Shown: in pieces, positions 14,739 to 23,994 of the stretch | Numbering within the stretch: the stretch's first letter is position 1 | How the letters are laid out: the number at the start of each line of letters is the position of its first letter | Virus record (IMG/VR): IMGVR_UViG_3300023223_000221 | Coordinates: 1 to 24,010 of that record | Origin: a virus | DNA: 24,010 nt | Strand: one strand, 5' to 3' | The notes under the pieces: model-generated | Seen by the model: only the letters and a program-made list of their open reading frames with translations | The model's database searches: none | What the model was told of the DNA's origin: nothing | Position numbers and translations under genes: made by a program

Positions 14739-15419
14739 TTAATCCTTTCTTTCAATTGTTTGGGCATCATTGCCCCCTTCTTTCTGAATAGGAGCGACTG
14801 CCATATTCATTGAGAATGATTTACGCCTTCCTTCTCCCTTAAAAGGAGCTACACAATGGTTTAAAAAGCTAGGAAACACATAGAAATCCCCTACTTTCGG
14901 ACGGATATAGAATACATGGGATGAAAGTTCCTGTGGATCCCCATAGGAAAACTCGATACATCCATCCAGGCAATTCGGATCTTCCGGAGCGGATATGCTT
15001 GCCGGCAATTCAAGATAGCCAACACAGCTAAGACTGCACTGAGTATGGTGGTGCCTGGGGTTATATTCTCCAGCTACCTGGTCAACGAACCAGCCAGTTA
15101 GAAAGAGCAATTCATGTTCCCCTTGGACCTTATAAAGCCCATGAGAGTTGATTCGTATGGTATCGATGAAATATTGCAGGATACCTGAAACCAGCTCCTT
15201 TAATACCTTTTGAGCAGTATGTTCAAGGAATTTTGGCTGATGTTCTATACGACCGGCAAGTTTGTGACCGTGATCTGTTTGAGATTTGTCCATGCCGGTC
15301 AACAGATAACCCACCAAATCATCGGACATTTTCAATTTACCCAGAGTGGGACCGAAAGGACACAGAATATCGAAATCAACATTCTGCAATATTGGGGGTG
15401 GATATTCTTTGTCCTTCAT
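14739..15419 (-). CDS. 2OG-Fe(II) oxygenase superfamily protein
   Basis: The 226-aa product matches the phage-associated 2OG-Fe(II) oxygenase type (2OG-FeII_Oxy_5-like). Around residue 120 it has NPRHHHTQCSLSCVGYLELP, and at 174-203 PKVGDFYVFPSFLNHCVAPF then GRRKSFSMNMAV. These supply the expected metal-binding histidines (one of 123-125, and 188) and a 2-oxoglutarate-binding arginine near 198-199. The second acidic ligand is not obvious. Such enzymes hydroxylate or demodify an unknown substrate, possibly virion protein or nucleic acid. The start overlaps the previous stop as ATGA, with GGAG upstream. Assignment to the superfamily is good; the substrate is unknown. Confidence 0.8.
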   Translation of the reverse strand: MKDKEYPPPILQNVDFDILCPFGPTLGKLKMSDDLVGYLLTGMDKSQTDHGHKLAGRIEHQPKFLEHTAQKVLKELVSGILQYFIDTIRINSHGLYKVQGEHELLFLTGWFVDQVAGEYNPRHHHTQCSLSCVGYLELPASISAPEDPNCLDGCIEFSYGDPQELSSHVFYIRPKVGDFYVFPSFLNHCVAPFKGEGRRKSFSMNMAVAPIQKEGGNDAQTIERKD

Positions 15420-16013: not shown

Positions 16014-16739
16014 TCATTGGATTCGCTGAATTCGAAAATCCACCAGAGTTTTCTTATCTGAGATTTGGTGGATGAAAAGCTCTATCACTTCGCGGTAGTT
16101 TTCAATCATCAACTTTCTTTTAAACTGGTTCGGTACTGCGATACACAATGTACCACCCTGGAGACTACTCGGAAAGGTATCATCGAATAGATGGTGATTT
16201 TCAGCCGATACCTGAGACTTGAGCATTTCAAGACATTTAGCCCACAGGTTCTCAAGGTCTGTGTTTTTAGGTTTTGATTTTTCTGATATTTCTGACGGTT
16301 TAAGGGGTGAAGAAGAAGAAGGAGAAGAAGAAGAAGATAAAGAGCTATCGTTTGCCATTGGCAAAACTATGGCACTGCCATCGTTATTCTGTTCCTTTTT
16401 CCACCGGCTGGCTCCTCCTTTTTTGCCTGCCTGGGACTTCTTTTCTCTGAAATCCTCCTGCTTTTGACGCTCTTTTTCGAGCCTTTTATTGACAAGTCTG
16501 ACAGGATTATCGGGCATAATTGTAAACCGGTCCATCACAATATCTGGCACAGAAGGAGTGCTTAATCCAGGCAAAAGTCTGATGATTTTGGTGTGGTCGG
16601 CGGGAATTGAACCTTGAATCCAGCAGATAGATAGAAGTGTGATGTAAACGCCTCTTTCCTCAAATGTCATGGAAATAACATTCTCATCGGACAGGAAATC
16701 GCCAGGGTAGAATTGAAAGGCAGGGCTTTTGTTAATCAT
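16014..16739 (-). CDS. DUF1376 / DnaA domain-I-like fusion, probable phage replication protein
   Basis: Residues about 5-90 are a DUF1376 domain (PAFQFYPGDFLSD, then MTFEERGVYITLLSICW), followed by the common linker AGKKGGASRWK. Residues 132-150 are a serine-rich linker. Residues about 162-225 match the DnaA N-terminal domain (domain I), with LWAKCLEMLK, AVPNQF and KRKLMIENY. In DnaA this domain contacts the DnaB helicase and regulators. The combination suggests a phage initiator or helicase-loading adaptor that couples phage replication to the host replisome. The start overlaps the methyltransferase by 8 bases. The domain calls are good; the mechanism is inferred. Confidence 0.8.
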   Translation of the reverse strand: MINKSPAFQFYPGDFLSDENVISMTFEERGVYITLLSICWIQGSIPADHTKIIRLLPGLSTPSVPDIVMDRFTIMPDNPVRLVNKRLEKERQKQEDFREKKSQAGKKGGASRWKKEQNNDGSAIVLPMANDSSLSSSSSPSSSSPLKPSEISEKSKPKNTDLENLWAKCLEMLKSQVSAENHHLFDDTFPSSLQGGTLCIAVPNQFKRKLMIENYREVIELFIHQISDKKTLVDFRIQRIQ

Positions 16740-22442: not shown

Positions 22443-23393
22443 TTATTTTGCTATTTCTTCTAATCCTTCAAGAAACAAATCATATCTCTCTTGAGTGATT
22501 TTAGAAGCGTCACTAAAACCATTTTTCTTTGCAAATGTCACAAACTCTTTGGTAGTGAGTTTCAGATCCCTCACCTTTTGCAGAACTGTAGCAATCTGCT
22601 CCTCGTTAATTGTTTCCAGTGTGATGGGAATATCATCATCCATTGGAGGAGGGATAGCATTCTCATCGGCAATGCCAGGACCCGGAGCAGGGGGAGGAGT
22701 TTCTTCTGGCTCCTCAACCACAGGAGGATTTGTTATTTCATCGGCTGTGAGAATTTCCATGGGAGGTTTTTGAGCGTCCAGGATTTTCTTGGAAGCCTCA
22801 AATTTTTCCTTATCCTTTTCCTTCTCTTTTTCGGTGACGATCACAGCTTCGATGTCGATAATATCCTGTACTTCTTCCCGACTCTGGATACCTTTCAGAA
22901 CATCGGGAAATAAATCCCGTAAGGCAAAAGAACGAGCCCTCATTTGAAGCATTCTTTTTGGATACTGTTTCCAAGGTCCGGTTTTTCCCCACAAGCCGGC
23001 TGTTTGAGCATCGGTCTTGCTAAACGTCTGGCTCACTACATTTGGCTCATCGTATCTTTTAACCTCACAGGTAGCAGAATTTAGATCACCTGTCTCTTTC
23101 ATCCATTCCAGATGCCCGGAACCCCGCACCAGTGCTATCTGAGCATCACCCCAGATGCAGGGACGCCCATTGATAACCGCGATATTTTGTAAGGCTTGCA
23201 TCGGCAGGAGGCCGACTTCCATCCCCAATTGAATAGCAACGATTGTGTTAGGTTCGTGGCCTTTAAAATCCTTGGGAACCATATCGGTGTGCGCCATCAT
23301 CTTACCCATCTTAAAAACTTCGTCATAATTCTTGGGAATGATCGGCATAATTTGAACCGATTCCCTTTTGATTAATGCTTGTTTTTCTTCCAT
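22443..23393 (-). CDS. recT: RecT-family single-strand annealing protein
   Basis: The 316-aa product has the RecT family core: VAIQLGMEVGLLPMQALQ and IAVINGRPCIWGDAQIALV (residues 52-88). These are followed by GLWGKTGPWKQYPKRMLQ and SFALRDLFPDVLKG. It promotes annealing of complementary single strands during phage recombination or repair. The C-terminal part (about 200-250) is a Pro/Glu-rich linker, followed by a small helical domain. The ATG at 23393 follows CTGGAGGGATCAACG and overlaps the 41-aa membrane protein frame by 22 bases. It is followed by the structured gap and then the SMC-like ATPase, a common phage recombination pairing. Confidence 0.9.
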   Translation of the reverse strand: MEEKQALIKRESVQIMPIIPKNYDEVFKMGKMMAHTDMVPKDFKGHEPNTIVAIQLGMEVGLLPMQALQNIAVINGRPCIWGDAQIALVRGSGHLEWMKETGDLNSATCEVKRYDEPNVVSQTFSKTDAQTAGLWGKTGPWKQYPKRMLQMRARSFALRDLFPDVLKGIQSREEVQDIIDIEAVIVTEKEKEKDKEKFEASKKILDAQKPPMEILTADEITNPPVVEEPEETPPPAPGPGIADENAIPPPMDDDIPITLETINEEQIATVLQKVRDLKLTTKEFVTFAKKNGFSDASKITQERYDLFLEGLEEIAK

Positions 23394-23499: not shown

Positions 23500-23763
23500 C
23501 TATGCTCCTACTTCATGCCGGGGATTGCCTTCATCCGGTAACAAATCGTTTTCCTGAAAATCGGACTCCACCCTTTCACCCTCAATTTCTTCATCAATCC
23601 ATAAGACAGCCTCATCTGCGGAATTGACCAAGGATTGAAAACATTCCGTATCCCAAAAAGGATCGGCAATATTTATGGCATCTTCCGGATCGGATTTTTG
23701 CAACTGAACCATAAGAGTTGCTATGCTCGTCTTAACTTCGATTAACGCTTCAATTCTGTTCAT
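23500..23763 (-). CDS. Hypothetical acidic protein, 87 aa
   Basis: No family is recognised. The product is rich in Asp and Glu, particularly in the last 40 residues (EEIEGERVESDFQENDLLPDEG), and has a helical N-terminus (IEALIEVKTSIATLMVQLQ). The start at 23763 follows CTGGAGGCTAGATT. It is the first full gene after the right-edge leader, in the position of an early regulator or DNA-mimic protein, but nothing in the sequence proves either. Confidence 0.65.
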   Translation of the reverse strand: MNRIEALIEVKTSIATLMVQLQKSDPEDAINIADPFWDTECFQSLVNSADEAVLWIDEEIEGERVESDFQENDLLPDEGNPRHEVGA

Positions 23764-23777
23764 AATCTAGCCTCCAG

Positions 23778-23933
23778 CTAAATATCGGTTGACAAATATC
23801 TCTTTATATGAGACAAAAAAAAAGGCCAAACAGCAGGGATCTCTTGGGAGAAAAGTCGCTGTTTGGCCTGAGTAGAGCTTTGCGGTTCGGTTTCCCGTAC
23901 CTCTCGGCTTTCTGATTTAATTAACAATCCCAT
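23778..23933 (-). CDS. Possible leader peptide frame, 51 codons, crossing the terminator
   Basis: An ATG at 23933 opens a frame of 51 codons that runs through the terminator stem, its loop and the T-run, and stops with TAG at 23780-23778, directly abutting the CTGGAGG ribosome site of the 87-aa gene. GGGAG lies 10 bases upstream of the ATG, slightly long. The peptide (MGLLIKSESREVRETEP start) has no known family. Translation through the terminator could keep the stem from forming, as in attenuation. The frame may equally be a chance one. Confidence 0.35.
   Translation of the reverse strand: MGLLIKSESREVRETEPQSSTQAKQRLFSQEIPAVWPFFLSHIKRYLSTDI
23815..23869 (-). terminator. Strong intrinsic terminator / attenuator of the early leader
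   Basis: AGGCCAAACAGC (23823-23834) and GCTGTTTGGCCT (23858-23869) are a perfect 12-base inverted repeat around a 23-base loop. On the minus strand the stem is followed by a run of 9 T (23823-23815). This is a textbook Rho-independent terminator. It sits between the promoter at 23966-23994 and the first early gene, so most transcripts would end about 145 bases after the start unless termination is overcome. Confidence 0.85.
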
Positions 23934-23965
23934 TTAATCTTTTCTCCCGTTAAAACTTAACCTTC

Positions 23966-23994
23966 AATATAAGCGAGTTTGGATTATAAGTCAA
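23966..23994 (-). promoter_or_regulatory. Sigma70-like promoter of the early leader
   Basis: On the minus strand TTGACT (23994-23989) and TATATT (23971-23966) are separated by exactly 17 bases, five of six matches to the -35 consensus and a good -10. The transcription start would be near 23959, about 25 bases before the ATG of the leader frame. This is the only strong promoter I see upstream of the early genes. Stronger phage promoters may lie beyond the right edge. Confidence 0.6.

Follow-up and report, generated by a model that had tools for sequence, protein, structure and literature searches.

A conserved early-operon leader of uncultured phages, with a terminator loop complementary to its own ribosome site, as a candidate self-locking attenuator

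Introduction

In the ampC-type growth-rate attenuator of E. coli and in pyrBI, a ribosome on a short leader prevents an intrinsic terminator, and read-through needs translation of that leader. We know of no ampC or pyrBI leader in which an anti-Shine-Dalgarno sequence in the terminator loop shuts off the leader itself. Phage early transcripts offer a second precedent: the C4 RNA of P1 and P7 and the CI RNA of P4 are short RNAs from the early transcript that pair with a leader ribosome site, coupling loss of translation to termination. These antisense RNAs are processed and act in trans, and the terminator is a separate one, often Rho-dependent.

Among the systems that we compared from the literature, the nearest documented one appears to be Gifsy-1 IsrK. 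At the IsrK/orf45/anrP locus, a prophage promoter gives rise both to a short terminated RNA and to a read-through mRNA, and a short upstream frame, whose ribosome site is hidden by long-range pairing, is translationally coupled to the next gene (PMC4825925). A lock of a related kind is known from the type I toxin mRNAs hok and aapA, where an anti-Shine-Dalgarno sequence near the 3′ end pairs with the 5′ ribosome site and silences translation; the AapA mRNAs in particular are a precedent for a 3′ lock that forms during and after transcription (PMC6733600). In E. coli gnd, as cited in that report, the ribosome site is hidden by an internal anti-Shine-Dalgarno sequence of the coding region, one that, as far as the cited description goes, is not part of a transcription terminator.

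Here we analyse a leader encoded in a 24,010-base stretch of DNA (hereafter the window), which is itself a virus record. As in ampC and pyrBI, leader translation is proposed to control an intrinsic terminator, in a direction argued below; unlike in those leaders, the terminator hairpin itself carries the lock. As in the C4 and CI systems, the ribosome site of an early leader has its complement in a short RNA segment, but both partners lie in one leader, the anti-site sits in the loop of an intrinsic terminator, and a repressor gene is present in relatives. Gifsy-1 also resembles the leader in the fusion, in one relative, of the upstream frame to the gene that follows. The two differ in that the IsrK frame follows the terminator and the IsrK short RNA activates in trans (PMC4825925), whereas the present frame begins ahead of the terminator and crosses it, with a loop that we expect to be repressive. 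In contrast to hok and aapA, the element lacks a conserved peptide and any stop ahead of the terminator, and it heads an early operon.

Results

A leader with a complement to its own ribosome site, ahead of an early operon

All features of the leader lie on the minus strand. The promoter, TTGACT-17-TATATT (23966..23994; −35 TTGACT at 23994-23989, a 17-nt spacer and −10 TATATT at 23971-23966), matches the consensus at 10 of 12 positions. Near the 5′ end of the transcript lies element A, GGGAGAAAAG (23939..23948), ten bases that include the GGGAG ribosome site and make up the Shine-Dalgarno region of a leader frame of 51 codons (23778..23933; ATG at 23933, stop ending at 23778). This frame stays open through the terminator and ends at the ribosome site of the gene for an 87-aa protein (23500..23763), the first gene of the early operon downstream of the leader; the same operon, behind the leader, encodes a RecT-like single-strand annealing protein (22443..23393).

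Between the leader start and the terminator is a GAAA-capped hairpin, P1 (GGTACGG-GAAA-CCGAACC, 23884..23901). The intrinsic terminator is a 12-bp stem with arms AGGCCAAACAGC/GCTGTTTGGCCT (5′ arm 23858..23869, 3′ arm 23823..23834), both of which covary across relatives, around a 23-nt loop (23857-23835). The 5′ side of this loop holds element A′, CTTTTCTCCC (23846..23855), the exact complement of A. A run of nine T (23815..23823) marks the expected end of an RNA of ~145 nt. The terminator is absent from the output of a simple terminator scan because that scan takes loops of 3-8 only.

When re-read from the sequence, the elements named in the preliminary description all lay at the positions that it gave, including its exact 10-base complement between loop and ribosome-site region and its 51-codon frame running through the stem to the next ribosome site. 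The perfect 12-bp stem and the nine T that it reported are both present, with the small correction that the first T doubles as the last base of the stem. The GAAA-capped hairpin, and the lack of conservation of the leader peptide described below, are additions to that account.

The module recurs in five further phages

Six distinct contigs hold the module: the window and the loci L002, L003, L073, L074 and L079. L002 and L003 were reached via the 87-aa protein behind the leader, L073 via a repressor alignment built from those two, and L074 and L079 via a DNA pattern that combines the conserved GGGAAACC with GGCC-T6. Two pattern scans returned 52 and 80 loci, with L074 and L079 as the only new members; the second, which used the 5′ half of the module, gave no further member among its 80 loci. 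Likewise, a covariance model run over 50 whole virus records and 0.85 Mb of loci found no member beyond the six: a single copy in each relative searched, and none in other virus records. Megablast and distant DNA searches of phages and plasmids returned no related leader, tblastn of the 87-aa protein in named phages returned no match, and the genome collection held no relative detectable by protein or by promoter pattern.

The module is thus a single-copy element at the head of an early operon. All five relatives have a similar promoter at the same place, and in each of the six phages an intrinsic terminator, with 7-9 T after GGCC, stands between the promoter and the first structural gene. The genes behind it vary. 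The 87-aa protein is 75% and 70% identical in L002 and L003, and L073 has a copy too, while the genes directly behind the leader in L074 and L079 differ from those of the window; a search for the RecT of the window, run without a positive control, found no match in the records of L002 and L003. The differing genes and the lack of a RecT match suggest that the module has been kept across differing early operons. Downstream of the T run, TGTCAA occurs in all six leaders (in the window within 23778-23815), some copies being preceded by GTCTCATAT; candidate roles are a protein site, a nut-like element or an operator.

Compensatory changes preserve the complement

In the window by itself, a loop complement of at least 10 bases to the upstream 110 nt arises in 0.4-0.5% of shuffles (upstream 110 nt dinucleotide-shuffled, the loop optionally too), which makes the single match suggestive, not decisive. 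Together with the divergent repressor gene found nearby in relatives, this frequency is what speaks for a chance complement or for an inverted repeat acting at the DNA level, such as a repressor operator, with no role in RNA. The comparison across phages argues strongly in the other direction. A and A′ pair at 60 of 60 positions over the six phages, 59 of them Watson-Crick and one a G.U in one phage, and when each A is re-paired with the A′ of another phage only the true assignment, 1 of 720, reaches 60/60. Nine of the ten positions vary, no two phages have the same A/A′ pair, and eight of the ten pairs show double compensatory changes.

For A:A′ and the terminator together, 97.5% of cells are paired and 11 pairs have double changes, with 25 doubly changed cells where shuffles give 9.5 and a covariation score of 0.667 (0.282 in shuffles); none of 500 shuffles scored as high. 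Sliding the partners by 1-3 columns lowers pairing to 39-53%. These values come from an alignment assembled from hand-chosen ungapped segments, in which the terminator arms were placed from the hairpin and the A:A′ register was set by the exact complement itself, and they rest on six sequences and hence few independent events. Among ~490 terminator-like hairpins in 1.4 Mb of fetched loci, a complement of at least 8 bases ending 3-5 nt before an ATG is found in the six family members only.

Since the complement is kept in six phages despite changed letters, chance is untenable. Compensatory changes affect A:A′, the terminator arms and the GAAA hairpin alike, and the letters of A differ among phages while its geometry to the start codon and the hairpin loop stays fixed; we regard an accidental or purely DNA-level origin as scarcely credible. 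Sequence comparison marks three structures as conserved: the A:A′ helix, the terminator and the GAAA hairpin. The preliminary description had named loss of the complement or the frame, in relatives that keep the hairpin, as evidence against its reading; instead complement, hairpin and open frame are all retained in the five further phages, the complement through compensatory changes.

Geometry and predicted folding of the leader

Element A ends 3-5 nt ahead of the leader start codon in all six phages. The distance from A to A′ is 93-96 nt in five phages and 105 in one, and A′ sits 0-3 nt past the 5′ arm of the terminator and ~8-11 nt ahead of the 3′ arm. Given this spacing from both arms, the terminator and A:A′ would be compatible as a coaxial H-type pseudoknot; pseudoknots with an 11-bp first helix, such as the IBV frameshift signal, tolerate ~8 nt across the groove.

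Minimum-free-energy folds of the nascent RNA ending at A′ (~115-127 nt) have all ten A bases paired to A′ in 6/6 phages, and in these folds the pairing precedes the existence of the terminator 3′ arm. In the nested fold of the full leader, A is not paired with A′ because standard folding cannot score a pseudoknot. The predicted energy of A:A′ is −13.0 to −17.0 kcal/mol, against −3.0 to −7.4 for A with the 16S tail. By the latter measure L003 and L073 have weak ribosome sites and may therefore initiate the leader poorly.

The GAAA hairpin is present in all six phages, closed by GG and CC, with a GGAAA loop in L073. Its GGGAAACC is invariant while the flanking pairs change, and an outer AGC/GCT pairing (GCC/GGC in L079) encloses it. 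The arrangement GGGAAACC...CAAAGCT had suggested a c-di-GMP (GEMM) riboswitch, a candidate that we rejected when Rfam, scanned against the window, L002, L003 and L073, gave no match to it at E-values up to 10. In these scans of four of the six phages, no Rfam 15 family reached its gathering score, including any known C4/CI-type immunity RNA in the window or in the L002, L003 and L073 leaders. The best-scoring family for the window, with 24 bits where 80 are required, was the unrelated rhizobial sRNA Atu_C4.

Folding more stable than shuffled controls (single-strand z of −2.5 for the window, −5.2 for L002, −3.2 for L003 and −3.4 for L073), together with a protected 5′ end and a U tail, would also suit a pseudoknotted small RNA that acts on other messages of phage or host, the terminator being a plain one and A:A′ merely stabilising the 5′ end. 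In L002 the loop even matches, over 14 nt, the ribosome site of a gene further downstream that encodes an ERF-like protein. We nevertheless consider such a small RNA improbable: near start codons the six phage contigs share no second target, the L002 site does not rank with the best ones of the other phages, and an open leader frame in 6/6 would be left unexplained. The match itself, with G.U allowed, lies at L067:3640-3662 (the record of L002), at the ribosome site of this annealing-protein gene, and was not seen in the other phages.

The leader frame is kept open and its peptide is not

In all six phages the leader frame is open from its start codon through the T run, whereas the other two frames contain 1-4 stops each in 12 of 12 cases. 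The product of the open-frame shuffle probabilities is 4e-5, an optimistic value in that it treats related sequences as independent. In every phage the frame is placed so that a ribosome would cover a terminator arm. Its register relative to the hairpin varies among phages, however (WPFF in some and xAFF in others), and in the terminator half, 8 of the 9 codons changed between the window and L073 are non-synonymous. The varying register and mostly non-synonymous changes indicate that openness, and not the peptide, is kept.

The leader ends near, overlapping or fused with the next gene in five of the six phages: at or near it in the window and L002, across its start in L074, and running into it in frame in L073 and L079. 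The L003 leader stops ~35 nt short of the next start. Such a layout would be expected if what counts is that a ribosome passes through the terminator, and not the peptide that it makes.

These features bear on a quite different role for the short RNA, as a leader-peptide mRNA silenced by its own 3′ end in the manner of hok and aapA, where the terminator would do no more than end that mRNA, with read-through as background. Pairing between a 3′ anti-Shine-Dalgarno and a 5′ ribosome site is known from type I toxin mRNAs (PMC6733600), and the leader start with an N-terminal KLNKKS-like stretch recurs in 5/6 phages. Past the first ~10 residues, however, the peptide is not conserved and the frame shifts against the hairpin. 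No phage has a stop in the frame before the terminator, so that an RNA ending at the T run would have no stop codon for it, and by eye the peptide has no obvious membrane-spanning stretch. A conserved small toxin peptide with its own stop on the RNA was found in none of the six phages. A silenced peptide mRNA is, in our judgement, quite improbable.

Discussion

The leader RNA element is real and conserved, and probably a switch that opens the early genes only upon timely ribosome loading. Comparison among the six phages supports A:A′, the terminator and the open frame as its parts, and from these we infer the mechanism: that timing decides, in which direction regulation goes, and that the terminated RNA is pseudoknotted. 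The interpretation that we favour, as on balance somewhat more probable than not, is that of a translation-coupled transcription attenuator with a self-lock, acting in cis on the early operon (the 87-aa protein gene and RecT) and also yielding a short RNA. Retention of the structures and the open frame supports the attenuator or short regulatory RNA that the preliminary description had proposed.

Under the attenuator model, polymerase would make A first, a few to ~11 bases from the 5′ end, and then the leader start codon. A ribosome loaded promptly would follow the polymerase and translate through A′ and the 5′ arm of the terminator; the terminator then could not form, polymerase would enter the early genes, and the ribosome would be delivered to the first gene or, where the leader is fused in frame with it, would simply continue. 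Should no ribosome have loaded by the time A′ emerges (~115 nt transcribed), A′ would pair with A over 10-12 bp and close the ribosome site. About 20 nt further on, the terminator hairpin would form and complete the H-type pseudoknot, and transcription would end with a predicted product of ~145 nt. The logic would be that of a race, in which an early ribosome keeps A covered and an absent one lets A′ shut A.

The same parts could instead act in trans, in RNA immunity or feedback. The short RNA, or a processed piece with the A′ loop, would then bind A in leader transcripts newly made by the same phage or by a superinfecting one, so that leader translation stops and termination follows as with P1/P7 C4 and P4 CI. 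Variation at nine of the ten A:A′ positions, with no pair shared between phages, is as expected for immunity types, and the single copy heads the early operon beside a divergent repressor gene in L002, L003 and L073. A cis helix would, however, be expected to show compensatory drift just as well. In the short RNA, A and A′ occur together in good geometry for a cis pseudoknot, and with both partners in one RNA the loop would be occupied in cis unless processed. A protein repressor gene, moreover, is already present in the relatives. We judge trans immunity unlikely, though deserving of serious weight. A distinctly doubtful idea, that of a new phage RNA family, combines the two roles: one hairpin would be both the terminator and the antisense to its own leader ribosome site, and its terminated form a type-specific immunity signal in trans, with each phage having its own A/A′ type.

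The self-locking attenuator would add a compact control element, in which the terminator loop doubles as a lock on the ribosome site of the very leader that would defeat the terminator. If it is correct, early gene expression in these phages would depend on the speed of ribosome loading, and the module would be a structured RNA family missing from Rfam that heads an early recombination operon in uncultured phages. Among the titles and abstracts listed in literature searches, which cover subscription journals thinly and so do not establish priority, we found no case of a terminator loop that hides the ribosome site of its own leader.

The genomic setting adds several observations. A divergent repressor gene adjoins the leader in L002, L003 and L073, and a conserved divergent operon lies opposite the leader at L067:1815-2775 and L068:2835-3738 (-), encoding a repressor with a shared C-terminal part followed by proteins of 71-77 and 85-90 aa; the counterpart in the window would fall just outside it. 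Terminase comparison gave no host assignment, the nearest terminases in named phages being 47-49% identical and spread over several host groups (phages of Pseudomonas, Shewanella, Stutzerimonas, Vibrio and enterobacteria). Elsewhere in the window, a 2OG-Fe(II) oxygenase gene (14739-15419, minus strand) stands amid phage tail and replication genes, and a gene at 16014-16739 (minus strand) encodes a primosome-like protein that matches DUF1376 weakly and also has a DnaA N-terminal domain. Near the repressor operon, L067:48-1265 (-) and L068:456-1371 (-) encode collagen-like proteins with Gly-x-Thr/Ser repeats that are apparently secreted.
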